This document shows positions 5,105 to 31,613 of a DNA stretch of 32,596 nt, piece after piece; the stretch's first letter is position 1, and each line of letters starts with the position of its first letter. The stretch covers positions 1 to 32,596 of the forward strand of contig QHYK01000106.1 in the NCBI GenBank assembly GCA_003224085.1. Direction: 5' to 3'. Source of the stretch: Acidobacteriota bacterium. GTDB taxonomy: Bacteria; Acidobacteriota; Terriglobia; Acidiferrales; UBA7541. The notes below the pieces were generated by a model that did no database searches, was not told the origin of the DNA, and saw only the letters and a list, made by a program, of their open reading frames with translations. The translations under genes and the position numbers were made by a program.

Positions 5105-5336
5105 GTGCGCTCGATAGGAATCCCGGCGCCGCGTCAGAACTTCATGAGTATCCGCGATCAGTCCTTGTGTTTACCGATTCCGCATCCTGACTTCTCAGAT
5201 TGCGAGCGTATGACGAGCTAACCGGAAATTGAGCAGCAGCGTCGCGTCGCTCTTTAGCTCCATCCAGCTCTGGCCCGATACAGGTGCGGCTCTTCTATAA
5301 TAGCTTCAACTGCTTTTGAACACGCACGCGGGGACT

Positions 5337-7393: not shown

Positions 7394-7470
7394 CAATTCC
7401 CCTGTCCCTATCGAAAATGCCGTCCGACGCGAACGCCTTTGAAATCAGCGACATTCAAGGAACACGATCG

Positions 7471-7491
7471 GAATGTAACAATGTTACATTC
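7471..7491. promoter_or_regulatory. Perfect 9-base inverted repeat at the subtilase start
   Basis: GAATGTAAC and GTTACATTC are separated by AAT. The TGTAAC/GTTACA half-sites resemble operators of several TetR-type regulators. It differs from the TGGTAC sites upstream, so another regulator may be involved. It overlaps one candidate ATG (7481) of the subtilase, which argues that translation may start later, at 7508. Confidence 0.5.
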
Positions 7492-8503
7492 TGCTGAAAG
7501 CCGCGGAATGGAGTTTTCGGTATTTCAGCAACCTGCGGTTTATGCCACAAACGCCCGGACCGCGATCCAGCAGAGACCTACCGGCATGTTCACCGTGGCC
7601 GTGATTGATGCAGGCATTGACCCGAACAACCCAATCCTCGCTCCGGTGCTTGTCTCGGGTTACGATTTCACCCGCAACGTCGAGGGCTACGCCTCCGACC
7701 TGGCGGATATCGATCAATCCACGGCTGCCATCCTGGATCAACCTCCGCCTTCATCGGGGCAGTCTTACCAAGTCGTTGTGCTCCACGAGTTCACGGCAGC
7801 CATGCTCGAGCAATCCACGGCTGCCATTCTCGATGGCGATCACCTGCCACACTATTTCGGGCACGGCACCATGGTGGCCGGCCTGATTCACCTGGTTGCG
7901 CCCACTGCTAGGATCCTGTCTCTTAAAGCGTTCAATGCTGACGGGACAGCGAATCAATCCGACATAATTCGCGCCATCTACTATGCCGTGGATCATGGCG
8001 CCAGGGTAATTAACATGAGCTTTGAATCGACGCAAATTTCTGACGCGTTGCTGAAAGCAATTAATTATGCAGATCGAAATGGTGTCATCTGCGTTGCCTC
8101 AGCCGGGAATGAGGGTCTAGACAGGCTTGTATACCGGGCGGCGTACGGCAACGTTATCAGCGTCGGTTCTGTGGACCAACAGAGCCAGCAGTCCTCGTTT
8201 ACCAACTTTGGCCCGGACTTGGTCCGAGTCGCAGCTCCCGGTGAAGCTTTGATTACCACGTATCCAGGCAACCATTACGCTGCTGCGTGGGGTACGTCGT
8301 TCAGCTCGGCGATCGTGGCAGGCATCGTGGCTGACCTTTTGTCGGCGGTGGACCAGCACCTAGCTCCAGCGCTGCGAGTCGGAGACTTCCAACGCGCACT
8401 TTCCCACGCCAGGAGTTGCGGGAATGCCGGTTCGCTTGGCGCGGGGTGCCTCGACTTCAACCAGGCCGTGCAATTCATCAAGGGCACGAACCTGCCCCAC
8501 TGA
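7481..8503 (+). CDS. S8 family serine peptidase (subtilase)
   Basis: A compact subtilisin-fold protease, 340 aa if the ATG at 7481 is used. The catalytic triad is complete: Asp43 in VAVIDAGID, His128 in FGHGTMVAG and Ser273 in WGTSFSSAIVAG, with oxyanion Asn210 in VASAGNEG. Between Asp and His is an insert (about 78-122) with two QSTAAILD units and a related FTAAMLE. I see no signal peptide and no inhibitor prodomain, so it is either cytoplasmic, exported by an unknown route, or a truncated gene. Starts are uncertain: TTG at 7439, ATG at 7481 (inside a palindrome) or ATG at 7508, none with a strong ribosome site. It follows tetR by fewer than 120 bases. Confidence 0.88.
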   Translation: MLHSAESRGMEFSVFQQPAVYATNARTAIQQRPTGMFTVAVIDAGIDPNNPILAPVLVSGYDFTRNVEGYASDLADIDQSTAAILDQPPPSSGQSYQVVVLHEFTAAMLEQSTAAILDGDHLPHYFGHGTMVAGLIHLVAPTARILSLKAFNADGTANQSDIIRAIYYAVDHGARVINMSFESTQISDALLKAINYADRNGVICVASAGNEGLDRLVYRAAYGNVISVGSVDQQSQQSSFTNFGPDLVRVAAPGEALITTYPGNHYAAAWGTSFSSAIVAGIVADLLSAVDQHLAPALRVGDFQRALSHARSCGNAGSLGAGCLDFNQAVQFIKGTNLPH

Positions 8504-19829: not shown

Positions 19830-20081
19830 ATGGCAGCTTCTAGCACAATCAGTAGCAAGGGCCAGATCACGGTCCCTCTTGAGATCCGTAATCGTCTCGG
19901 GCTGAAAAAGGGAGATCGTGTGGAATTTGTCGTTGACAATGGCCGAACGACCATCCGCCCCGCACGTGCACCTGAGAATCCCTTCGTGAAGTATATCGGG
20001 GCACTTCCCGCCTTCTCCGGCCCCGATGAAGCAAATGCATGGGTGCGGACGTTGCGTGACCAAGAAACTGAAGGACGATGA
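19830..20081 (+). CDS. AbrB/SpoVT-type antitoxin (VapB-like)
   Basis: An 83-aa swapped-hairpin DNA-binding antitoxin. The SpoVT-AbrB domain spans about residues 5-48: ISSKGQITVPLEIRNRLGLK, then KGDRVEFVVDNGRTTIRPAR. The C-terminal 35 residues (PFVKYIGALPAFSG onward) are the usual toxin-wrapping tail. AAAGGAG lies 10 bases before the ATG. The stop overlaps the toxin start as ATGA, so the two proteins are made in a coupled way. The antitoxin should neutralise the PIN toxin and repress the operon. Confidence 0.92.
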   Translation: MAASSTISSKGQITVPLEIRNRLGLKKGDRVEFVVDNGRTTIRPARAPENPFVKYIGALPAFSGPDEANAWVRTLRDQETEGR

Positions 20082-20491
20082 GAACGGCAATCGATACCAA
20101 CGTCCTCTCCGCCCTCTGGTCCAAGAAACCTGTGGCTTCAGACATAGCAAGAAATCTTGGCAATGCGAAGAGGGAGGGGGGGCTTGTTGTCAGCGCGCCA
20201 GTGTACGCGGAACTGCTGGCCTATCCGAAGGCCACAGAATCGTTCGTGAATGACTTTCTCGCGGATACCGGCATCGCTGCGGACTTTGAGTTTCAACAGC
20301 CGGTATGGCTTGAGGCTGGCCGACGTTTTGCGCGTTATGCGAAACGGCGACGACGGTCTGCGCATCAGGGTCCGAAGCGTCTGCTAGCTGATTTCATCAT
20401 TGGATCGCATGCCTTGGCGCAGGCTGATCGTTTTATGACGCTCGATCCGAAGCGATATGAGCGGGATTTTCCAGAACTGAAGCTCATATAG
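20078..20491 (+). CDS. PIN-domain ribonuclease toxin (VapC-like)
   Basis: A 137-aa PIN-domain protein. The acidic metal-binding residues are present: Asp6 in AIDTNVL, Glu45 in VYAELL, Asp105 in LLADFIIG and Asp123 in TLDP. The family cleaves RNA, typically tRNA or rRNA loops, when freed from the antitoxin. It overlaps the AbrB-type antitoxin by ATGA. A basic stretch (AKRRRRSAHQGPKR, about 88-101) precedes the third acidic residue and may contact RNA. All catalytic residues are intact, so the toxin is probably functional. Confidence 0.92.
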   Translation: MRTAIDTNVLSALWSKKPVASDIARNLGNAKREGGLVVSAPVYAELLAYPKATESFVNDFLADTGIAADFEFQQPVWLEAGRRFARYAKRRRRSAHQGPKRLLADFIIGSHALAQADRFMTLDPKRYERDFPELKLI

Positions 20492-21116
20492 TCTAGCTTC
20501 CGCGACTTCGTCCGGTCGCCTACCGCAGAATTCTCGATTCATCGCAGAAATTCTTCGAAAAGTTGTAAGGGGTTGGAAAAAAGAAGGTTGGCTCGCCCTA
20601 GACGATTTTAGAACTCTCCCAATCGGCCAGATCGTGGCAGATATTCCACAGTTCGACGCTTTCAGGGTTTGAACCGGCGATTGCACTCGAATGGTTGCGG
20701 GGGCCTGCAACGATCCGAATTTGTCTAGTGCGGTCCCTTTAAGTTGGAACTGATCCGATTCGCAGCGTAGCCAGCGTGCAGGGTCATAGCTTGGCGGTTG
20801 CTTCCGGGTGGCCAGGAGTGCATGACGAGATGCGCGTTTCTCGGTACCTATTTGGTGAGACTTCCTCCAAGCGGACTTCTGCCCGGAATAACTCCGGTTA
20901 GCCCGTGATCCGCCCGCAATCGGCGGCAAGCGCCAATTGAGCCGCCGACTTCCCACAGCAGGATTCATAGGCCAGACCGGTCGACGGCGGTGCGACTCGA
21001 CCAACATTGCATCTCTTAAAACCAAGGTTCGTAGACGGTGTAGAATGCACAAACGCACGAATAGAGACGAATCAAGGTTTTCGTAAGCCTTGCGCCTTCA
21101 ATTCAGGGAGGCATTC
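20492..21116. other. 625-base spacer before ggt, holds repeat copy A
   Basis: A 224-codon minus frame crosses it but has no recognisable motif and overlaps the repeat copy, so I do not call it. The promoter of the gamma-glutamyltransferase gene should lie in the right third. Confidence 0.45.
20829..20960 (+). repeat. Dispersed spacer repeat, copy A
   Basis: Shares 17 identical bases with copy E (GCGCGTTTCTCGGTACC). It then has a diverged hairpin region (ACTCCGG, CCCGTGATCCGCCC) and a tail matching copy C (GGCGGCAAGCG ... ACTTCCCA). It lies between vapC and ggt. Confidence 0.6.
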
Positions 21117-22934
21117 ATGACAGTATCGAAGAGAACGCTTGCTACATTCATCTTGATTGCCTGCTTGGGCTTTGCCGCCAATGCGATCGCCCAAGGTCCA
21201 GACGGCTCTTTACCGCGAACCATGCGCCCGGTCATTCGAGGCCGACAGGCAGCAGTGTCGTCGATGAAGGCGGAAGCAACCGAAGTGGCAAGCCGCATCT
21301 TGCGGACGGGCGGCAACGCGTTCGATGCCATCGTTGGCGGCCAAGCGGCACTCGCAGTGACCGACTTCGCCCTTAATGGTGTCGGCAGTGACGCCGTTGT
21401 GCTCGTTTACGATGCGCGCGAGAAGAAAGTAGTTTCCATCAACGCGGAGCCGCGCGCTCCTAAGCTGGCGACCATCGAGTGGTACGAGAAGAATAGTGGC
21501 GGCAAGATCCCGGTCAGCGATGGGCTGCTGTCGGGCGGACTTCCGGGTGTGGTGGACGCTTGGTACATCCTGCTTGATCGCTGGGGAACAATGAGCTTCG
21601 AGCAGGTGCTCCAGCCGGCCATCGACCTTGCGGAAAATGGATTTCCCCTGAGTGAAGGTCGCGCGCGCATGATTGCCAACGCTCAGAAAATACTCAAGTA
21701 CCCTTCGACCATCAAGATCTACAAGCCAAATGGCGATACGCCGAAGGCTGGTGAGATCTTCAAGAATCCTGATCTCGCTCGCACGCTGAAAAAGCTGGGC
21801 GAAGCGGAAAGAGCGAATAAGTCAAAAGGGCGGCACGAGGCATTGAAAGCGGCCCGCGATCGCTTCTACACAGGCGACATTGCGCGCGAGATGGCGGCTT
21901 TCTCAGAAGCCAACGGCGGCCTGTTCCGCTACGAGGACTTCGCGGAGTACACCGCGAAAGTGGAGACTCCGGTCTCCACCGATTACCGGGGCTATCAGGT
22001 TTACAAGAATCCCTCCGCTAGCCAGGGACCGACCGAGCTGATCGCTCTAAACCTGCTGGAAGGGTACGACCTGAAAGCGCTCGGCCATAATAGCGTTGAC
22101 TTCATCTCCACCAATGTCGAGGTCATGAAACTGGCCATGGCCGATCGTGAGAAATTTCTCGGCGACATGGACTTCATCAAAATTCCCTACGACGGATTGT
22201 TGTCGAAGGACTACGCGCGGGAGCGCAGAAAGCTCATCGATCCGGCAAAAGCTTCGCTGGAGCTGCGCCCCGGTTCACCCGACAAATTTGTCGCCGGGGT
22301 TGCGGAGCGGCCCTGGCACGTGGTTCTCGACGGCGACGCGGACTTCAACGGCGACACCAGCTACATCGCAATCGTCGATAAGGACCGCAACATGGTGAGC
22401 TTCGAGCCCAGCCTTCACAGCTTGTTCGGAACGGGAGTCGTGATGGGAAATACGGGAATCATCTTCAACTGCCGTGGCGACTATTACTCGTTGGTTCGCG
22501 GTGAGGCCAACGCGCTTGAGCCCGGAAAGCGGCCCCGCAGCACGTTGCAGAGCACGCTCGTGATGAAGGACGGTCAGCCGTTCATGATTACGGGAAGTCC
22601 TGGCGGCGACGACCAAGTGATGATCACCTTGCAGACTTTGGTCAACGTGATCGATTTCGGCATGAACGTGCAGCAAGCCATCGAAGCTCCACGGTGGGAG
22701 ACCAGAAGCTTCCCGTCTTCGCCGTTTCCGCACACCATGGTTCCGGGCGATATGGCGGTGGAAGAGCGCATTCCTGAAGCGACGCAGAAGGAACTCATCG
22801 CGCGCGGTCACAAGTTGCGTGTCGCACCACCTTGGTCCCTTGCGTCCAGCGCCGCAATCATCGTCGATCCGAAGACCGGCGTGCTGAGCGCAGGGGCTGA
22901 CCCACGAGTCGAGGCGTACGCGTGGGCATGGTGA
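21117..22934 (+). CDS. ggt: Gamma-glutamyltransferase family protein
   Basis: A 605-aa Ntn-hydrolase precursor. The start at 21117 follows GGGAGG and gives a signal peptide TLATFILIACLGFAANAIAQ. Large-subunit features include GGNAFDAIVGGQAALAV and LSGGLPGVVDAW. Autoprocessing should occur before Thr414 in NGDTSYIAIVD, creating the catalytic N-terminal threonine of the small subunit; SPGGDDQ near 493 forms the oxyanion and substrate loop. The usual TTH is TSY here, as in several remote members. The enzyme is exported and cleaves gamma-glutamyl bonds (glutathione salvage, or acylase-like reactions). Length and order match the family. Confidence 0.9.
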   Translation: MTVSKRTLATFILIACLGFAANAIAQGPDGSLPRTMRPVIRGRQAAVSSMKAEATEVASRILRTGGNAFDAIVGGQAALAVTDFALNGVGSDAVVLVYDAREKKVVSINAEPRAPKLATIEWYEKNSGGKIPVSDGLLSGGLPGVVDAWYILLDRWGTMSFEQVLQPAIDLAENGFPLSEGRARMIANAQKILKYPSTIKIYKPNGDTPKAGEIFKNPDLARTLKKLGEAERANKSKGRHEALKAARDRFYTGDIAREMAAFSEANGGLFRYEDFAEYTAKVETPVSTDYRGYQVYKNPSASQGPTELIALNLLEGYDLKALGHNSVDFISTNVEVMKLAMADREKFLGDMDFIKIPYDGLLSKDYARERRKLIDPAKASLELRPGSPDKFVAGVAERPWHVVLDGDADFNGDTSYIAIVDKDRNMVSFEPSLHSLFGTGVVMGNTGIIFNCRGDYYSLVRGEANALEPGKRPRSTLQSTLVMKDGQPFMITGSPGGDDQVMITLQTLVNVIDFGMNVQQAIEAPRWETRSFPSSPFPHTMVPGDMAVEERIPEATQKELIARGHKLRVAPPWSLASSAAIIVDPKTGVLSAGADPRVEAYAWAW

Positions 22935-23250
22935 GGACAGTACATAGGGCCAACGTTCTGATCCGGCACGTGGCCGAGTTGGAAGGTCCGGAAACCGATT
23001 GTCTGTGATACACACTTTCTGAGTGTCAGCAAACCGGAAGGTATCCGGATTCCTCGGTGGGGATTAGTCATGAGACGGCTTGTCGCTGGCAATGCAACGA
23101 TCACTGCTAGCGCGTTATCTGGAGGCAATTACTTCCGGATGCCCGTGATTCGCCCCTAAATAGCAAATTTCGCGGCACAACCTAGCGGCATCGTAGGCCG
23201 ACGAAATGGGCCGCAGCGAACTGCAGCCCACCAGAAAAACCTATCTTTAG
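22935..23250. other. 316-base convergent spacer, holds repeat copy B
   Basis: It separates the convergent ggt and amidase genes. A weak 5-base stem ACACT-AGTGT lies near 23010-23025, but there is no T-tract after it. Most of the right half is repeat copy B. Confidence 0.45.
23033..23156 (+). repeat. Dispersed spacer repeat, copy B
   Basis: The left half begins with the small hairpin CCGGA-AGGTA-TCCGG and shares 32 of 36 bases with copy D. The right half has ACTGCTAGCGCGTT (14 bases identical to copy E) and ATTACTTCCGG, then the partner strand GTGATTCGCCC. It contains both hairpins of the family. Confidence 0.65.
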
Positions 23251-25185
23251 TTAATTCTTATCCTGATCGCGCTCCACTACATCGCTCGCCAGCGCTGGAG
23301 CGCTGGCTGGAGCCTGACGATGATGCGTTGCCTGCTCGAAAGCATACGCAAAGCCGATCAACCTGCCTTCGCTGAATGCCGGGCCGCTAAACGTGACGCC
23401 GTATGGCGCTGGCTGCGCGTCGAAGCCCGCCGGGAACGGCGTAGGCGGTGAGAGCAGCGTGGAGATTGGCGCCGGAGGATTCACGTAAAAGCCTCCTGGA
23501 ACCGTGATGCTTGGATAACCGGCGCGCGCGGCGATATTGGCGCCGTTATTTGCCGGAAACAGGATCGCGTCAAAGTGCTGGTACATGACGTCCAGTCCCA
23601 TCGTCTTGGCCAGCAGAAGGTCCTCGGCACGGTCGCTGTGGTAACGAGCAGTATCGGCACTCAGCGGGCTCGTATCGAGAGCTTGCGCGGCGATTGCCAG
23701 TATCTGTCCATACTTCAGTGCAACAGCTGCGTTCGCATTGTTGTAGGCAATCACGTCGGCCAGCGACGTCACGGGTGTTCCTGAGTCGCTCGTTGCACCG
23801 GCGGAGCCGTACGTCGCAAGAAGATAATTGTTCAAATCGTGCTTAAAGCCGTAGAGCAACACAGTGGAACAATTTGCGGGCTGGGGCGGCAAGCTGCCGC
23901 AACCACCAAATGCGTTCAATGCTGCCTGATCAGGAATCTCGCCCGGACAGTTGAAGAAGTCCTGGGGCTGCTGCCCACTCGTGGGACCATTCTGGTAGCC
24001 ATTCGCGCCGTATTCAGCGGCATAAAACTGATCGCAATCGGTTACGATTGCGCCCAGCGAGCGCAGCACTGCAACAGCGTTTTCCATCACATTCGCACGC
24101 TCGACGCTAATGCTCTCTCGGCCCGACCCGGTAGTCCAATAGCTGTAGTAGGGAACGGCAATGCGTGCGCCGCGCAGCGCGTCTTTATTAAGAAATCCGG
24201 TGTAGTCGCTCAGGCAGTTTCCCGGCGTCAGGCAAGCGGCAGTCGCTGGATCTTGCGGATCGTAGCCGGCAATTACGCCCAGCACTTTGCCAGCATCGGT
24301 GACGGTGCGTGCCAGTGGGCCTGCTGTGTCCTGATCTTCCGTGATGGGCACGATGCCAGTTCGGCTCACCAATCCGATCGTCGGTTTAATACCGACCAGC
24401 ATGTTCTGAAAGCCGGGGCTCAGAATTGATCCAGAAGTTTCAGTACCGATCCCGACAGCCGCCAAGTTCGCAGAAACTGCGATTCCAGGCCCCGAGCTCG
24501 AGCCGCCTGGAGAAAGCGCAGGCCGTCCATCATTAACGCCTGCTCTGGGATCAGGTCGCGGATCATAGGGATTGAAACCGTAGCCGTCTGTCGCCAAATC
24601 GTCCCCCGCCCCCGTCTGCTGGAATCGCAATTGTGAACTGAACCCCGCCGGCATGCCACTGGTCAGGAAATTGGCAAACTCCGTAAGACTCCCCTTTCCC
24701 AAAATGATCGCGCCGGCTTTCCGCAATTTGGCGGCGACAGTCGCATCCTGCGGCGGCATGGATAAGCCTAGCGCTACTGAGCCCGCCGTCGTCGGCATGT
24801 CTAAAGTATTGATATTGTCTTTCAGGATCATCGGCACGCCGAACAACGGCAAGTCGCGCCGGGCATTGTCATCGTGGTTGTCCAGTTGATTTGCGGCATC
24901 GATCGCGTGGTCGTTCAGATGCATGTAGCTCGAAAGATGTGGAGTCGTTGCAAGCCCGTCGTAGGCCGTAATGCGGCCCTGGTACATCTTCACTAATTGC
25001 TCAGGGGTTAAAAGATGGGATCGATAGGCTTGCTCGATCTCGCTGATGGTTGCCTCAACAAGGTGGAAGGATGAGCGCTCGTGCAGCTGCTCTTGCGATG
25101 CACCCTGGCTTGACTGGCTGTGCAGCCGGGGCGCAAAGCTGAGCGTTGCAAGCGCAAGCAAGGTGAGAGAAATGCGGAATTTCAT
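23251..25185 (-). CDS. Secreted amidase-signature family hydrolase
   Basis: A 644-aa amidase. The start at 25185 is chosen because GAGGAGGAAC lies directly upstream and the protein opens with a signal peptide (FRISLTLLALATLSFAPRLH). The Ser-cisSer-Lys triad is visible: Lys122 in MILKDNI, cis-Ser near 229-230 in SPGGSSSGPG, and nucleophile Ser253 in GTETSGSILSP. An insert of about 45 residues (175-222) before the SGG motif and a Cys-containing region in the C-terminal half make it longer than the usual 450-500. The family cleaves amides, N-acyl amino acids or peptide amides. Export suggests scavenging of amides or peptides. Confidence 0.92.
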   Translation of the reverse strand: MKFRISLTLLALATLSFAPRLHSQSSQGASQEQLHERSSFHLVEATISEIEQAYRSHLLTPEQLVKMYQGRITAYDGLATTPHLSSYMHLNDHAIDAANQLDNHDDNARRDLPLFGVPMILKDNINTLDMPTTAGSVALGLSMPPQDATVAAKLRKAGAIILGKGSLTEFANFLTSGMPAGFSSQLRFQQTGAGDDLATDGYGFNPYDPRPDPRAGVNDGRPALSPGGSSSGPGIAVSANLAAVGIGTETSGSILSPGFQNMLVGIKPTIGLVSRTGIVPITEDQDTAGPLARTVTDAGKVLGVIAGYDPQDPATAACLTPGNCLSDYTGFLNKDALRGARIAVPYYSYWTTGSGRESISVERANVMENAVAVLRSLGAIVTDCDQFYAAEYGANGYQNGPTSGQQPQDFFNCPGEIPDQAALNAFGGCGSLPPQPANCSTVLLYGFKHDLNNYLLATYGSAGATSDSGTPVTSLADVIAYNNANAAVALKYGQILAIAAQALDTSPLSADTARYHSDRAEDLLLAKTMGLDVMYQHFDAILFPANNGANIAARAGYPSITVPGGFYVNPPAPISTLLSPPTPFPAGFDAQPAPYGVTFSGPAFSEGRLIGFAYAFEQATHHRQAPASAPALASDVVERDQDKN

Positions 25186-25927
25186 GTTCCTCCTCGAAGT
25201 GATCTGGTTCGGAATAACATTCGACGAGAGTTCGGTCAATTCAGAGCGGGCGAAATTATCCGACCCGAGATTGCCCTGAGTCAAGAGTTGTTGTGAAAAG
25301 CCCGTGCTACTTGGCTCATGGGTCGCAGCAGTGGCGGCAAAGGGCTTTCGGGGTGTACGGTCGGCTAACCGGTAGCTATCCGGCTTCTACTGCGGGATTG
25401 GTAGTCGGCTTGTGGAACGTGATTGAGTGCTTTCCGACTCATGAATGCATCTTTTTGGCCGGATGACGGGTGATGCGGAAGTAACCGGATTACTTCCGGC
25501 TTGCCGTTATCCGCTCCCAATCCGGCGGCAAGCGATAGACGGAGTCTCCAACTTCCCAGAAGGCCCATCCCCGGCTCTTTAGCGGGTAACAGTCCCAACA
25601 CTCCTGGTAGCCCTACGTTAGGCGGTCAAATGCCAATCGCCCTACCCCCACAATTGACCTTTAACGGAAAGGACTTGAAATTCTGCAGCGACAGCGGTAA
25701 GGTGCGCAACACTCGTCGGCCGGAGTCCCTCGGTCAACGAGCCCACGGAAGTCCCTGAAGGCACTCAATATTGAGAGCAAGGTTCTGGGCGGGCGTTGCG
25801 ATCTGCCTGAAGGAGAGAGAGACACCTCATGGACGACTCGCGATTGGTCAGAGGATTCAGCCCCAGCGATTGCAACACCTCGGGAACTCAAGTTCCTGCA
25901 CATTTCTTTGCTCAATGGGAGGAAACG
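25186..25927. other. 742-base spacer, holds repeat copy C
   Basis: Lies between the divergent amidase and CHRD-protein genes. A perfect 12-base palindrome CTCAATATTGAG lies at 25764-25775, about 150 bases before the CHRD gene. Upstream codons in frame with the CHRD gene (from 25829) lack a ribosome site. Nothing else is supported. Confidence 0.45.
25365..25570 (+). repeat. Dispersed spacer repeat, copy C
   Basis: Begins with ACCGGTAGCTATCCGG, a variant of the left hairpin, and then diverges. At 25486-25515 it has GGATTACTTCCGG ... GTTATCC, the right hairpin. The tail GGCGGCAAGCG and ACTTCCCA matches copy A. It is longer than the others, consistent with an insertion in its middle. Confidence 0.55.
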
Positions 25928-26476
25928 ATGAGGAATCTTGGATTGAGAATCACATTGGCTGCGCTGTTTGTGCTCGCGGTGCCTACCATCATGAGCTTGG
26001 GCGTACGAGCCCAAAACGACGATGAGGGCGGTCGAGCCCATCAGTTCGGCGCTGAGTTGCGTGGACGACACGAGGTTCCCTTAACGCTCTCAGGCGCTCA
26101 TGGAAGCCTCGCGTTGACAGTGAACCAAGGCGACAGCTCCATTCACTTTGTACTGACGTACGAGGGCCTGCAGGCACACATCTTGTTTTCCCACATCCAC
26201 GTGGGACAACCAAACGTCAATGGCGGTGTTACGGTGTTCTTTTGCGACAACACAACGCCACCCCATACTTCACGAACTTGTCCGGAGAAAGCGGGGACGG
26301 TTGAGGGCGATTTCACGGCTGCCGACGTGATAGGACTCACGTCGCAGCGGCTCGCCGCAAACGACCTGGCAGCGCTGCTCGAGGCGATTCGCGCACGGCA
26401 AACCTATGCCAACCTCCATACCATGGACAGTCCTGGCGGCGAGATTCGCGGACCAATCCTGCCCGGAAGGGAATAG
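25928..26476 (+). CDS. Secreted CHRD-domain protein
   Basis: A 182-aa exported protein. The start at 25928 follows GGGAGGAAACG and opens a signal peptide (LRITLAALFVLAVPTIMSLG then VRAQ). The mature part is one CHRD domain (about 38-180): FGAELRGRHEVPLT, GSLALTVNQGDSSIHFVLTY, IHVGQPNVNGGVTVFFCDNT, and the end TMDSPGGEIRGPIL. His at HIHVG and His in NLHT with the E-I-R-G-P ending are the family hallmarks. CHRD was named from chordin; bacterial copies are secreted and of unknown role, possibly binding or antioxidant. A Cys pair (FFCDN, RTCPE) may form a disulfide. Confidence 0.85.
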   Translation: MRNLGLRITLAALFVLAVPTIMSLGVRAQNDDEGGRAHQFGAELRGRHEVPLTLSGAHGSLALTVNQGDSSIHFVLTYEGLQAHILFSHIHVGQPNVNGGVTVFFCDNTTPPHTSRTCPEKAGTVEGDFTAADVIGLTSQRLAANDLAALLEAIRARQTYANLHTMDSPGGEIRGPILPGRE

Positions 26477-27056
26477 CCGGAAGCCTTTGTGGCGCAGCAG
26501 GGCTGTGGGAACGACAGCAGCGAAATCCAAGTACAAACATGCGTTAGCCAAGCCCACGAAAACGACTAAAATAGTTCTTTACACTGTTGCGCCCTTTCAT
26601 CGTTGACGGCGCGGATCCGACAACTCTGGACGAGTGGTCGGAAGGTATCCGGGTTCCACGGTGCGGATTAGTCCTGAGAAGTCACCAGCAATTTAACCGT
26701 CACTGCAAGCGCGTTTCCCGGTACCAATCCGCCAACCCGCAGGCATTGCCACAGCCTTTCAGGGCTGGCTCGTTCAGACCACGGCGTTATTTATACCGCA
26801 TCAAGGGTGAAACCGTTCTTCAGTTCCACGGCATAGGACCTTACGATATAAATTACGTGAACCCTGCTGCCGATCCAACCCAAAAGCCAATTGGCGGGTA
26901 AATCATGCAGCGTTCGGCCCCGCCGGAGTATTGAGCGATCAGAGATTTCTGTCGGCTGCCGCTGAAAACCCGGCGCCTTCTGCCCGGCTCTAGGAATAAA
27001 CGGCCCCCTGCCGACCCAAGTTCCCCCGTGCAACAGGGCGCAGCTGCGCGGCGATT
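26477..27056. other. 580-base spacer between CHRD gene and IS66 remnant
   Basis: Contains repeat copy D in its left part. The 26800-27050 stretch may be flanking debris of the IS66 element, but I find no terminal inverted repeat. No gene is supported. Confidence 0.4.
26638..26750 (+). repeat. Dispersed spacer repeat, copy D
   Basis: The left half (GGAAGGTATCCGG onward) matches copy B at 32 of 36 bases. The right half (AAGCGCGTTTCCCGGTACC, then ATCCGCCAACCC) matches copy E at 34 of 37 bases. It lacks the GGATTAC hairpin, ending instead near the CCAACCCG block. Confidence 0.65.
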
Positions 27057-27414
27057 CTGGCCAAGTGGTCGGCTTAAGCGATTCGCTACGCGTTGGGGCG
27101 GTGGGACGCATTGATGCGTTTTTGCGATGATGGTCGAATCGAAATTGACAACAACGCGGCGGAACGGTCATTGCGCGCCGTGGCTTTGGGTAGGAAGAAT
27201 TATCTTTTTGCCGGATCGGATGCCGGGGGTGAGCGCGCCGCAGCTATCTATAGTTTAATCGGCTCCGCCAAACTGAACGGAATCGACCCAGAAGCCTATG
27301 ATACTTGCGCAATGTTCTGTCCTGCATCGCCGATCACCCGATCAATCGCATCGAGGAGTTGCTGCCGTGGAACGTTGCAATCAGCCGGACGTCGGAAATA
27401 CACAAGGCGGCATG
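27057..27414 (+). mobile_element. IS66-family transposase (TnpC) C-terminal remnant
   Basis: From 27078 the frame reads AIRYALGRWDALMRFCDDGR, IEIDNNAAERSLRAVALGRK and NYLFAGSDAGGERAAAIYSL, the near-invariant C-terminal block of IS66 TnpC, with the last catalytic acidic region IDNNAAER. Two lesions kill it: a TAA at 27075-27077 where Glu is expected, and a short insertion near 27297 after DPEAY. Past that, the shifted frame recovers [20 protein letters not shown] then LPWNVA and ends at the TGA overlapping the next ORF. Everything upstream of about 27057 is lost. Confidence 0.85.
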
Positions 27415-27705
27415 AACAAGGAAGCCGCCGGGAGTGTAGGCGGCGAAGGCAGTCCTTGGGAACTACCGCACATTGCTGAGTTGATTGATGAGGGCCAAAT
27501 TACGATCGGTGTGATTCGTCCGGTCGGGAAGAGTGTCGCTGTGGCCAACGACGGAGAAACCACCTTGGCTATGCTGGTACGCAAAGAAGGAGAAACCCTA
27601 CTCCAGTTGCTTACCCGCCTCGACTTGGCCGTCGCCAAAGCGCAAACCGAGGATATCTTCACCGACGAGATCAACCCGCGACCTTCACAGTCGAGACATT
27701 CATAG
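27412..27705 (+). CDS. IS66-associated downstream small protein, 97 aa
   Basis: The ATG overlaps the TnpC stop (ATGA) and opens [20 protein letters not shown]. The body reads [40 protein letters not shown] and [17 protein letters not shown], ending [10 protein letters not shown]. Small proteins of this type follow tnpC in many IS66 relatives; I recall the type but not an assigned function. The frame is intact although the transposase is broken, so it may survive by chance or be recent. There is no signal peptide or membrane helix. Confidence 0.65.
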
Positions 27706-27868
27706 AAATTCGGAATCCGTCAAGGTGCACTCGCCGGGCGCTTACCCACTGTAAAGAATCTCCTGAACTGGTGTGAAGTTGGTCAGCATGGGCTCTGTTC
27801 TTCGATTCGAAGTCGATTGATAGACTTCCGCCGGCCCCACGTCTTGTGCTCCTCCTGTCCGACCGTAC

Positions 27869-28351
27869 TCATGGTTTCGTCGAATTTGTCGGTTCGGCAG
27901 CGCTCATTCCGGCCACGATCTGCCACACCTGACCATTCTTCATCCAAGTGTGGCTCAACCGCCGCGTCGTGGTCGACTCCGAACCGTCAGCGTTGCGATA
28001 GTGCGTCGTAGCACGATAGAAAGTAATCCCGATGGAACCATGCATCTCGACGCTTTCGCGCTGCAGCTCGTACGCGACCACTCGGGACAATGGTGAGTTC
28101 CCCGATTTGAAATCAGAAACGACTTCCTCCTTGTGAATCGGGTGGTCTTTAACCATTGGCCACCCTACAAAGTTATCGCTCCAGAGCGCTACGAAGTGCT
28201 CCACATTGTGGGCCTGCACATAACCCCAGTAGGCTTCCTCGCCGGACCAAACTTGGGCGGCTGCGGACTCGGGGCTGGGCTCCAACCGTACTAAGCCGGC
28301 GCCGGCGAACAGTGAGAAAAAAACAGCCGCGACACGAACCGGAATTGGCAT
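27869..28351 (-). CDS. Secreted NTF2-like (SnoaL/DUF4440-type) protein
   Basis: A 160-aa protein with a signal peptide (VRVAAVFFSLFAGAGLVRLE). GGAGG lies about 6 bases before the ATG at 28351. The mature part is a cone-shaped NTF2-like fold: EEAYWGYVQAHNVEHFVALW then SDNFVGWPM, with strands ESVEMHGSIGITFYRATTHY and RRLSHTWMKNGQVWQIVAGM. These are typical of the SnoaL/DUF4440 group: an early helix with W-x-x-x, an L-W-S/A-D-x-F-x-G strand, and the closing R-x-S-x-x-W-x-x-x-x-x-x-W-x-I-V strand. Family roles vary from enzyme to binding protein; none can be assigned. It is cotranscribable with the beta-lactamase-fold gene upstream but is 154 bases from it. Confidence 0.8.
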   Translation of the reverse strand: MPIPVRVAAVFFSLFAGAGLVRLEPSPESAAAQVWSGEEAYWGYVQAHNVEHFVALWSDNFVGWPMVKDHPIHKEEVVSDFKSGNSPLSRVVAYELQRESVEMHGSIGITFYRATTHYRNADGSESTTTRRLSHTWMKNGQVWQIVAGMSAAEPTNSTKP

Positions 28352-28425
28352 TTTGAGCCTCCACAGGCAGACGGCATTGTAGCCCTGCCCTGAGAGAGTG
28401 CACCGAACCCCCGTCGCAGCGCGGA

Positions 28426-28455
28426 ACTAATTCGATACTAAGATACTAATTCGAT
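28426..28455. repeat. 19-base tandem direct repeat
   Basis: ACTAATTCGAT occurs at 28426-28436 and 28445-28455 with ACTAAGAT between. It lies 75-105 bases upstream of the minus-strand NTF2-like gene, so it could be a binding site in that promoter. The local A+T richness is unlike the flanks. Confidence 0.5.
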
Positions 28456-28505
28456 CAGGTCGCGCTCTTACACACGTCGGTTTAGGCGGTGCCCAGGTCA
28501 GAAAC

Positions 28506-30215
28506 TTAATCGACCCTCTTTTCGAATCGAAAGTTCCGAATGCGGCCGGCGTTGAGGACCAAACCGGAGATGCGCTGCCTCGAATCACGCGTGAAGCGCA
28601 CGGTGCCAATGTCCCCGGTAAAAACGTCGCGGACAGCTGGCCGAAGAGCCTCTGCTTTCTTTTTCAGCCTCGTCAGACTCAAATTCTCGTCCTGCAGCAC
28701 AATGCGGTAAACCGGGTCGATTTCTTCGCTGACGTAAGCGCCCACATACTCGCTCAGTTCCGTGCCTCTCGGCGTAAACGCCGTCGCGGATTCAAATATG
28801 TCCGGCTTTTCGCCCTCGAAGCTCTCCTCCAATCGGCGCGGCTTTTCCGAGCTGGCGGGCAGAAATCGTATCTCCACCTGATCGCCCCAGGGAACGTCAG
28901 CAACGTGGAAGCTGGCTTCTCCGGCGGGCTTCAGCGTATGAAACTCGTCGCCGCCAATGTTGATCTGCAGCTTGCCATCCTTCACCAGGATTTTATGGAA
29001 GTCATCATCTTCCCGGTTCCAGTAAATCCCCGCGAGCGCGGCCATCTGCTCCACGCTAAGTGGCGCTCCACCGCTCTTTGCAGTTTCTTTCACAGCGGTT
29101 GGTTCGGGAGCCTTGAGATCCTTGGCGAGAAGGATGTCTGCGACCTGTCGGACCAACGCAGACGGATTTGTGTTCGCTGCGTTGCAGAGCACCGCTGCGG
29201 AGAAGTGTTGTTCCGGGAATCGTGTCATGTCCGAGCGATACCCGGCATCGCCGCCGGCGTGGTCTACCGTTGGCAGGCCTTTGTACTTGCCCACCACCAA
29301 CCCAAAAGCATAGTCGAGCTGCTCGCCGTTATTGAGCTTGCCGCGTTCGAGCATTTGCTGGAGGAACGCCGGCCCGCCAAGCCTTGGGTGATAGAAATTC
29401 TCATCCCACGGTTGGAGGTCCTCCACCGTGGTGTGCAGACTCGTTGCGCCCACGGTGTCGAAGTTTGTAACGCTCAGCCGGAAGGGCTTGTTTTTGTCTT
29501 CCTGTCCGTATCCGAGAGCATTGTGCTTAACGATCTCTGCGTGGTCGTCTCGGAAATGCGTGTGTGTCATGCCCAGCGGTTCGAAAATATTCTTGGTCGT
29601 AAACTCGCGCAGCGACAGTCCGCTTACTCGTTTCACGATCAATCCCATCAGCGTGTAACCCGTGTTGCAATAAACGTGCTTCTCGCCCGGTTTGAAGTTC
29701 AGATCCTTCTGCCGCGTCATCACGGACATCACGTCGTCATCGGTAATCAAATCCAGCGAATAGCGCCATCCCGCTAGCCCAAGCAGCGACCACTGATCGC
29801 GCAGCCCGCTGGTGTGGTGAACCAGATGCCGAATCGTAATCCGCTCCCCGAAATCAGGCAGGTCGGGAATGTATTTGCGCACATCGTCATCCAGCGAAAG
29901 TTTCCCCTGCTGCGCCAGCAACACGATCGAAGCAGCCGTAAACTGTTTCGACATCGACGCCACATGGAACACCGTCGCGGGCGTGATCGGTACGTCGTCA
30001 TTCAGATTGGCCATGCCGTAGCCGTGCTTGTAGATAATTTGCCCGTCTCTGTAGACCCCCAGCGCGCACCCTGGCGAGTCGCTCTTGTCCCACTTTTCGA
30101 AGACGTTGTCCACCTGCGCCTTGACATTTGAAGGCAGCGGTTGTGGTTGTGTCTGTGCGGCCAATCGGCCACAGGGTATGAGCAGAAAAAGTACGGCAAG
30201 ATTGAAACGCCTCAC
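28506..30215 (-). CDS. Secreted serine hydrolase, class C beta-lactamase fold
   Basis: A 569-aa exported hydrolase. The start is the GTG at 30215 with GGGGGA upstream; it opens a signal peptide (FNLAVLFLLIPCGRLAAQ). The fold's motifs are present: Ser87-Met-Ser-Lys90 in HVASMSKQF, Tyr182-Cys-Asn184 in VYCNTGY and His319-Ala-Gly321 in VDHAGGDAG. The beta-lactamase domain covers about 28-375. A C-terminal beta-rich domain of about 190 residues follows (from about 390, with AALAGIYWNRED and SEYVGAYVSEEI), as in DUF3471-bearing family members. Family functions are D-aminopeptidase, esterase or carboxypeptidase rather than antibiotic resistance. Confidence 0.92.
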   Translation of the reverse strand: MRRFNLAVLFLLIPCGRLAAQTQPQPLPSNVKAQVDNVFEKWDKSDSPGCALGVYRDGQIIYKHGYGMANLNDDVPITPATVFHVASMSKQFTAASIVLLAQQGKLSLDDDVRKYIPDLPDFGERITIRHLVHHTSGLRDQWSLLGLAGWRYSLDLITDDDVMSVMTRQKDLNFKPGEKHVYCNTGYTLMGLIVKRVSGLSLREFTTKNIFEPLGMTHTHFRDDHAEIVKHNALGYGQEDKNKPFRLSVTNFDTVGATSLHTTVEDLQPWDENFYHPRLGGPAFLQQMLERGKLNNGEQLDYAFGLVVGKYKGLPTVDHAGGDAGYRSDMTRFPEQHFSAAVLCNAANTNPSALVRQVADILLAKDLKAPEPTAVKETAKSGGAPLSVEQMAALAGIYWNREDDDFHKILVKDGKLQINIGGDEFHTLKPAGEASFHVADVPWGDQVEIRFLPASSEKPRRLEESFEGEKPDIFESATAFTPRGTELSEYVGAYVSEEIDPVYRIVLQDENLSLTRLKKKAEALRPAVRDVFTGDIGTVRFTRDSRQRISGLVLNAGRIRNFRFEKRVD

Positions 30216-30408
30216 TTAGGTCCCCCTACCAATTCGCGGATCAAATCATCAGCGGCAGCGTACTGCGTCTCTGGTTTGGGGTAAAGGCCCAAACGTGTGG
30301 TGGCCTTCCCGGGCGCTTCCGATCATGCGGCGTCATGGAAGTTTCACAATCGTGTCGGCACACCGCCTGTCGTTGGGTACCATCAGCTAATGAAGTAGGA
30401 GATCCACG

Positions 30409-31335
30409 ATGCCCGTTAAGACGCTGATCGCAATGTTTGCGACTGTTGCCGCCAGCTTTGCGGCCCAGACGATCGTTGAAGCAGCGCAGGAGAAGCCGGC
30501 AATGCAAACCGCCACGCCCAAGCCCGTCAAGAGCGCGTATGCCGCAGTCAACGGCCTGAACTACTACTACGCCGTCTACGGCAAGGGCGATCCACTGTTG
30601 CTCCTTCACGGCGGTCTCGGCCAGATCGAGATGTTCGGTCCCAACTTGACCAGGCTCGCGCAGAGCCGGCAGGTGATCGGTGTCGACTTGCAGGAACACG
30701 GCCGCACGGCACTTGGCGATCGCGAGCTCAGCCTGGTCAACATGGGCAACGACATGGCCGACGTGCTGAAGAAACTCGGGTACGACAAGGTCGATGTGCT
30801 CGGCTATTCGATGGGCGGCGGCGTGGCGTTCCAATTCGCCGCTCAGCATCCGGCGATGGTTCGCCGCCTGGTGCTGGTTTCCACCCCGTTCTCGCAAGAC
30901 GGGTTCTATCCGGAGATGCTGCCGCAGCAGGCAGCCCTCGGCGCCGCGATGGCGGGGCAGATGAAGGAAACGCCGATGTACAAGTCGTACATGGCGATCG
31001 CGCCGCATCCGGAAGAGTTTCCGAAGCTGCTCGACCAGATGGGTGCCTACATGCGCAAGCCGTACGACTGGTCGGCGGACGCCAAGAAACTGACCATGCC
31101 GGTGATGCTCATCTACGGCGACAGCGACATGTTTCGGCCGGAGCACGAGGTGAAGTTTTACCGACTGCTCGGCGGTGGACTGAAGGATGCCGGCTGGCAG
31201 CGCGAGCACATGTCGCAGAACCGGCTGGCGATCCTGCCGAACCTGACGCACTACGAAATGGGCCTCGCGCCGCAGCTGGTCGACACCGCTCTGCCGTTCC
31301 TGAACGGCGCAGGATCATTGATACCTCCACGGTAA
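30409..31335 (+). CDS. Secreted alpha/beta hydrolase
   Basis: A 308-aa hydrolase. GTAGGAG lies 8 bases before the ATG, and the protein opens with a signal peptide (TLIAMFATVAASFAAQTIVE). The HGG oxyanion motif is at 67-69 (LLLHGGLGQ). The nucleophile is Ser134 in LGYSMGGG, the acid is Asp238 or Asp240 in YGDSDMF, and the base is His281 in NLTHYEM. A lid region lies at about 160-225. Codon use is more GC-biased and uniform than neighbours, and the strong opposite-strand open frame (30241-31251) follows from that bias. This may mark recent transfer. It diverges from the beta-lactamase-fold gene. Confidence 0.9.
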   Translation: MPVKTLIAMFATVAASFAAQTIVEAAQEKPAMQTATPKPVKSAYAAVNGLNYYYAVYGKGDPLLLLHGGLGQIEMFGPNLTRLAQSRQVIGVDLQEHGRTALGDRELSLVNMGNDMADVLKKLGYDKVDVLGYSMGGGVAFQFAAQHPAMVRRLVLVSTPFSQDGFYPEMLPQQAALGAAMAGQMKETPMYKSYMAIAPHPEEFPKLLDQMGAYMRKPYDWSADAKKLTMPVMLIYGDSDMFRPEHEVKFYRLLGGGLKDAGWQREHMSQNRLAILPNLTHYEMGLAPQLVDTALPFLNGAGSLIPPR

Positions 31336-31613
31336 CAATCGGTTTGTTCGGGACTACGCGAATTACTGCGGCGGTTGGCATTACGGATTGTAGACCACAA
31401 TGGATATTTGCTTTGAGTTTTGCCATGATCTGGTCGAGCGACTCAGATCAGAGCCTCTCGACTCAAACCGATCCCTAACGATCAAGTCGGCTTCTCGCTC
31501 GTAATTGGTCCGTGACTGCTAGCGCGTTTCTCGGTACCGATCCGCCAACCCGTGGGGATTACTTCCGGTTTGGGCGTAATCCACCCACGATCAGTGATCG
31601 ACCTCGCCTGTGA
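31336..31613. other. Spacer with repeat copy E
   Basis: The stretch right of the hydrolase stop carries repeat copy E in its right half. I see no gene, terminator or RNA in it. Confidence 0.4.
31511..31600 (+). repeat. Dispersed spacer repeat, copy E
   Basis: Contains ACTGCTAGCGCGTTTCTCGG then TACCGATCCGCCAACCC (34 of 37 bases shared with copy D). The best-preserved right hairpin follows: GGATTAC, a 13-base loop TTCCGGTTTGGGC, GTAATCC. The left hairpin half is missing. Confidence 0.65.

Follow-up and report, generated by a model that had tools for sequence, protein, structure and literature searches.

Inverted repeats of more than one kind have been described from Acidobacteria. In Solibacter, hairpins resembling repetitive extragenic palindromic (REP) sequences and having a CnGA foot reach about 600 copies and are associated with class 3 TnpA_Y1 (PMC6006769). 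In Koribacter and other Acidobacteria, the inverted-repeat families called TIRtrons/TIRYT lie beside Y1 transposase genes and carry the motif GGGGWSAS (PMC3733652). An attC model has also been built for Acidobacteria, from which it follows that true integrons occur in the phylum (PMC8352920). The subject here is a family of small hairpin-forming DNA sites seen in a 32,596-nucleotide stretch of Acidobacteriota DNA (contig QHYK01000106.1 of assembly GCA_003224085.1), hereafter called the window, which is the whole of contig C110 in a genome of 159 contigs and 6.8 Mb. Genomes, contigs and loci are given below by G, C and L numbers. An earlier note, made from the letters of the window alone, had recognized pieces of one element in five spacers (copies A to E) and had taken it for a non-autonomous element or a structured regulatory repeat with two hairpins, matching none of REP, ERIC and attC. 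The explanation favored here, tentatively and with somewhat less than even confidence, is that these are asymmetric hairpin sites of the Acidobacteriota that work like REP/REPIN repeats in a strand-specific manner. No description of the site was found in the open-access PubMed Central literature that was searched; subscription papers and supplements lay outside the search.

The window spacers hold old, worn copies of a real family. As a single query, copy B recovered copy D (E-value 3.5e-12) and sites in the genus relatives G008 (1.0e-10) and G018 (2.9e-6); copy D recovered the same-genome contigs C140 (8.3e-10) and C51 (4.2e-7) and also C145, and copy E recovered copy D and C140. The resemblances listed in the earlier note were reproduced, with B and D 90% alike over 41 nt, D and E 83% alike over 58 nt, and a 17-mer common to A and E. 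Two profiles gave 167 and 149 real matches, against none in reversed decoys. A consensus of the copies matched 24 of the 36 genus genomes (E ≤ 0.01), and a 37-position model of one end of the element (the R end), trained on rows some of which are window copies, matched 35 of the 36 (E ≤ 0.1), two of them with at least 50 matches each. Match counts are lower bounds, since scoring with this model was capped at 150 candidates per genome. When the R core was written as an exact degenerate pattern, 52 stretches in a genome collection covering 84,980 species fitted it; the titles of 51 are acidobacterial (Acidobacteria, Terriglobia, Acidobacteriaceae, Edaphobacter and others), and the remaining one is titled Spirochaetales. 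All 12 further genomes reached through these loci carry sites, with from at least 8 to at least 30 matches each (E ≤ 0.05), and include Edaphobacter lichenicola and strain KBS 89 (Acidobacteriaceae). The hairpin family occurs in many soil Acidobacteria, more widely than had been stated.

An anchored alignment showed that the left and right parts recognized earlier are two mutually inverted ends of one element. The R end reads GATTCTGGGCGAATCACGGGCAAACCGGAAGTAATCC and the L end GATTCTGGGCGAATTGTCGGCAAACCGG; these ends are about 37 bp long and differ at one step, where R has ACGGGC and L has GTCGGC. The two hairpins that had been named were not borne out as the conserved structure. What is conserved is a pair of inverted but unequal arms, ACGGGCAA...TTGCCGAC, which enclose a variable tip; ACG/GAC is the mismatched step between the arms, and a looser frame, GATTnnGGGCGGATS...NATCC, lies outside them. 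Folding of the window copies did not surpass that of shuffled sequence (z -0.6 to -1.7). The arms recur around differing interiors, of about 170 bp in window copies B and D and of 71 to 93 bp in other kinds, and also in compounds; a short hairpin kind has 45 to 55 bp between cores. At a score of at least 14, an opposed partner end lay inside in 14 of 74 cases and outside in 1 of 74, with controls at 4 and 2 of 74 and 3 of 51. Across 32 aligned short sites, A8, C9, G10, C13 and A15 (numbered by the first row) are invariant, 14 further columns, CGAC among them, are at least 90% conserved, and at the foot the alignment reads GGATSACGG. Two copies (L004/L010, L006) are directly adjoined by hairpins of another family (GTTGTATCGGAAGCGCG...TTCGATACAAC), which is present in L186 too.

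The limits of the copied unit were taken from occurrences of the core with up to two substitutions, which numbered 1359, many of them by chance. Among 195 pairs (85 sites) with like interiors and unlike flanks, the sequences were near identical from ACGGGCAA inward; likeness just outside ACGGGC fell to the family level (0.43 at position -1 and about 0.6 at GATT), and beyond position -15 it stood at background, about 0.3. At the other limit likeness dropped directly after CGAC (79 pairs, 62 sites). In the profile at the ACGGGC limit the evidence lies on the outer side alone, since likeness of the interiors was the criterion by which pairs were chosen. Converse pairs, with a like outer flank and an unlike interior, numbered 14, of which two were inspected closely and some are transposase copies; the clearest are L107/L196 and L132/L294. 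The inner unit and the outer frame thus assort separately, and the switch from one to the other falls at the mismatched step or close to it. Some copies with unlike flanks have identical interiors of 30 nt, for example twice within L308 and also between L107 and L309, which points to recent copying. At the edges of 46 sites no direct repeats exceeded shuffled maxima (k 2 to 8), so that target-site duplication, which had been put forward as a check, was not found. A search for an empty palindromic target lacking the unit gave two real and no decoy matches (gap 0 to 6, at most 4 substitutions) and was unconvincing, one of the two being an element end. Nor was a clean empty site found when a 16.6-kb contig was compared with the 36 genomes; the alignment ends fell at sites.

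Neighboring sites strongly share a strand. A set of 124 sites at 75 loci was assembled with a structure model, R2 (E ≤ 0.1, full-model coverage required), leaving out opposite-strand echoes (window 25467 on the minus strand, L137 3505 on the plus strand, and partial 11-47 matches). Adjacent sites were on the same strand in 45 of 49 pairs (p = 8e-10), and 27 of the 31 loci with at least two sites were uniform. The exceptions were L304, L306, L108 and the window, where copy C is ambiguous and, if read on the other strand, would make the window pair count as same-strand. L304-L312 were picked by eye from multi-hit contigs after the strands had been seen and contribute 16 same-strand and 2 opposite pairs; by hand recount the remainder comprises 29 and 2. 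Among the matches listed for the 12 further genomes, neighbors 0.3 to 15 kb apart were on the same strand 23 times and on opposite strands 6 times (hand count). The strand of a site showed no link with that of the flanking genes (84 same, 74 opposite). Sites lay in 35 tandem, 27 convergent and 17 divergent spacers, and 26 of the 124 were centered inside an open reading frame (ORF) of at least 110 amino acids by a simple ORF call. On several contigs (L307, L308, L309, L311) a site stands in many of the spacers, and the genes there point both ways.

Changes of gene order were found at some of the sites. In alignments between related genomes, 27 of 199 ends fell inside a site, a count that takes each pair from both sides and in which L230 and L300 are one place; these represent about 11 independent junctions, window copy B included, where flanks that are 81 to 97% identical break off within the site. 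Junction loci include L107/L196, L186/L195, L065/L069/L080, L048/L073/L074 and L162/L171, and further L150/L163, L132/L294, L101/L125 and L006/L047. The break positions differ from junction to junction and fall at several places in the element. Control distance bins peak too, with 27 ends at 101-200 bp beyond sites and 34 at -500 to -300, which probably mark the ends of gene families. Both flanks are kept at L073/L074 and L095/L096, contrary to the junction pattern, and because nearly all of the genomes are metagenome assemblies, with several copies near contig ends, some junctions could be assembly joins. In the window, positions 21040-23024, which hold a gamma-glutamyltranspeptidase gene, are 90% identical to G019:C258 up to the L end of copy B, and G019:C258 has no R2 site where the homology stops. 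On the left flank of copy A, positions 20739-20841 match G019:C220 at 97% identity; on the right flank the sequence from 20904, inside the R end, matches G011:C479 at 92% identity, and G011:C479 has its own site there.

Two further observations concern segment boundaries. Matches from G043:C304, G043:C66, G019:C275, G017:C64 and G011:C60, five places in four other genomes, all start within 3 bases of window position 28464, a sharp boundary at which no site of the family was detected. A segment of about 440 bp, running from an R end to what reads as the 3' half of a tRNA gene, was seen in L101, L125, L065 and L202 and also in L069 and L080; its occurrences at several places in G011 and G019 show 92-96% identity, and it could represent one end of an integrated element.

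The copies in the window differ in their state of preservation. Copy B is the most complete (23025-23163, plus strand, 118.7 bits with the full-element profile), with the L end at left and the R end at right. Copy D (26632-26749, plus, 109.0 bits) keeps the left module and the middle and has lost the R end, and copy E (31481-31593, plus, 94.6 bits) keeps the middle and the R end and has lost the left module. These three and part of copy C are training rows of that profile, so that only copy A is independent in it. Copy A (20832-20925, plus) is a worn element with its R end at right and scores 21.5 bits; the R end itself (20886-20921, minus) scores 30.1 bits in the R-end model, whose training set contains the row of A. 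The five spacers of the earlier note stand, except that copy C (25359-25530, 46.8 bits over the whole span) is compound. It comprises a left module at 25359-25402 (plus), an 89% match to consensus positions 1-44, and a separate 72-bp hairpin of two opposed ends at 25451-25522, the strand of which is ambiguous: the end profiles pair 25453-25484 (plus) with 25487-25522 (minus), and the R2 model gives 38.1 bits on the plus and 30.1 bits on the minus strand. A sixth piece had been missed. This is a lone R end at 5198-5230 (plus; E 7e-5 with a profile trained without it), outside the range first given and an inverted 86% match to 20893-20921.

Several other features of the window were recorded. A C-terminal fragment of an IS66 transposase (27093-27235; PF03050, E 3.2e-17) lies 340 bases past copy D. 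About 200 bp immediately before copy A (20576-20774) recur in G043:C96 (81%) and G019:C201 (87%). At 19830-20491 are genes for a MazE-type antitoxin and a PIN toxin, with relatives on unrelated contigs of several genus genomes. Three direct repeats of about 29 nt (7710-7834) lie within an ORF at 7439-8503 that looks like a subtilase by reading.

The proposed REP-like behavior can be set out as follows. The copied unit is ACGGGCAA, the variable tip and TTGCCGAC, inside the GATTnnGGGCGGATS...NATCC frame. It would fold on one strand of single-stranded DNA, where a strand-specific enzyme supplied in trans, most likely an HUH nuclease (Y1, TnpA_REP-like), would cut and rejoin it, and the copies could then act as junctions at which neighboring gene blocks are exchanged. 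HUH enzymes are expected to leave no target duplication, and the absence of direct repeats at the site edges fits this expectation. REP/REPIN/BIME repeats with RAYT, as described in PMC3733652 and PMC6006769, are likewise short dispersed palindromes with paired inverted units and no target duplication. The nearest published candidates are the class 3 TnpA_Y1 hairpins (PMC6006769), likened to the present sites by description and not by sequence: both are acidobacterial, high in copy number and REP-like. CnGA near the foot in 15 of the 32 short sites, a raw count with no chance level, is a suggestive link only, and the present family could be those same hairpins. A difference is that no class 3 gene was found beside the present sites by an HUH-motif scan, which used no class 3 profile. 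The TIRtrons/TIRYT are also acidobacterial inverted repeats and were compared by description only. The earlier statement that the element is not REP is therefore right as to the foot, since GT[AG]G is not conserved, and is less apt insofar as the nearest published relatives found for it, in PMC6006769, are REP-like.

A number of observations weigh against this proposal. Only 12 of the 32 sites contain GT[AG]G at a distance of up to 12 nt from either foot (again a raw count with no chance level), and a conserved base with a variable tip is not typical of REP. RAYT genes were above cut-off in 19 of the 36 genus genomes, and among the loci that were scanned (L258-L290, of which 30 are RAYT or Y1 loci, covering part of all RAYT genes) L286 alone has a convincing site. 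There, at 1201-1903 (G015:C102), an IS200-type TnpA gene sits within the R end and splits the element; the same locus, as L052, was the sole repeat-fetched locus with such a gene in the HUH-motif scan of 313 loci. Covariation was weak, with a score of 0.155 where shuffling gave 0.130 and 20 of 500 shuffles attained the real value, and 172 of the 199 alignment ends lay outside sites. In E. lichenicola sites of a cluster keep to one strand, yet along a single replicon the strand switches (sites at 1363629 plus, 1600602 minus, 1605299 minus and 1667746 plus, some of the matches being weak), which a pure lagging-strand effect does not predict. The transposase end that had been suggested for matching was not found among the end pairs, the RAYT loci or the HUH scan. 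End pairs up to 5 kb apart in the fetched loci were short elements or compounds, with no transposase between two strong ends. IS91-type genes were near few copies, at four loci (L171, L006, L128 and L068; the comparison set held 170 loci). The gene family recurring beside sites proved by ORF reading to be Ser/Thr kinases, taken as an abundant paralogue family. Remnants of tRNA genes near some copies were not general, intact tRNA genes being present in 3 of the 49 loci scanned.

Among the other explanations, integron-like cassette sites without an integron, between which an unidentified recombinase would excise and insert single genes, are rather unlikely. In attC sites a conserved base carries a variable tip, as in the present sites, and the arrays of L307, L308, L309 and L311, where many spacers hold a site on the one strand though the genes point both ways, favor this explanation, as does the separate assortment of frame and inner unit at the core (L107/L196, L132/L294). 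The description in PMC8352920 adds that attC is an imperfect hairpin kept on one strand along the array. Against it, the attC core boxes (RYYYAAC...GTTRRRY) were lacking in all 32 sites, 30-nt flanks included, so that the earlier exclusion of attC holds at the level of the motif, although the layout is similar. No integron integrase (TIGR02249) was over cut-off in any of the 36 genus genomes, and the weaker tyrosine-recombinase matches seen in all 36 were found equally in all 14 control genomes. The genes ignore the strand of the site, and break positions vary among junctions. Homologues of two genes of the L308 array had an R2 site beside them in just 2 of 9 loci elsewhere (L314 and L319, of which L319 has the site turned round with respect to the gene; with the R-end profiles a further, weak match appears in L316), and no single-gene insertion or loss was seen in the loci compared. 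Integrase-less, integron-like gene shuffling in Terriglobia, in which folded single-strand sites, set on one strand in many spacers of long gene arrays, would cross over at ACGGGC and CGAC through an unrecognized recombinase and so let genes and their neighbors be exchanged, is unlikely. It is improbable that the sites are old palindromic repeats with no living enzyme, serving as passive places of homologous or illegitimate recombination. The wear of the window copies, their folding at no more than the shuffled level and the breaks at several different element positions agree with such a state, but the identical interiors in unlike flanks imply recent copying, and the shared strand would be left unexplained.

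A classical miniature inverted-repeat transposable element (MITE) moved by a DDE transposase through terminal inverted repeats is disfavored as very unlikely. MITEs and Correia-like elements are small, have inverted ends and contain no gene, and the present sites resemble them in all of this, with terminal inverted repeats of about 37 bp that are unequal at the core. Neither target duplications nor a same-ended transposase was found for the sites, and no parent transposase lay between paired ends in the loci searched; the lack of duplications and the shared strand of oriented neighbors argue against a DDE element. The description as a non-autonomous element fits in a general sense, insofar as the sites are dispersed and sharply bounded, have inverted ends and contain no gene. 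The other half of that description, a structured RNA or cis-regulatory element, is the least probable explanation and is held to be highly improbable. In its favor, pairing between the proposed arms holds in 76% of cells, compared with at most 48% when they are slid, and 98 of the 124 sites are not centered in an ORF of at least 110 amino acids. The independence of site strand and gene strand argues against an RNA element, pairs with a change in both partners were no more frequent than after shuffling (6, against 6.7), nor were the types of pair more numerous, and Rfam gave no covariance-model match in the window (E ≤ 1). In a scan of 20 loci the sole Rfam match was to a group II intron domain (RF00029, L126 2616-2692), which lies outside the sites and near one copy. 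The covariance model built from the sites served for their detection. The options that remain are a site read on one strand, either of REP type with an HUH enzyme or of attC type with a recombinase, and the sites may be recombination sites as yet unnamed.

Acidobacteria are abundant soil bacteria, and gene movement in their genomes is little known. A family of sites that marks changes in gene order and whose neighbors lie on one strand offers a direct handle on acidobacterial gene movement, and it makes it possible to test clearly whether a REP-like repeat or an integron-like system is involved.

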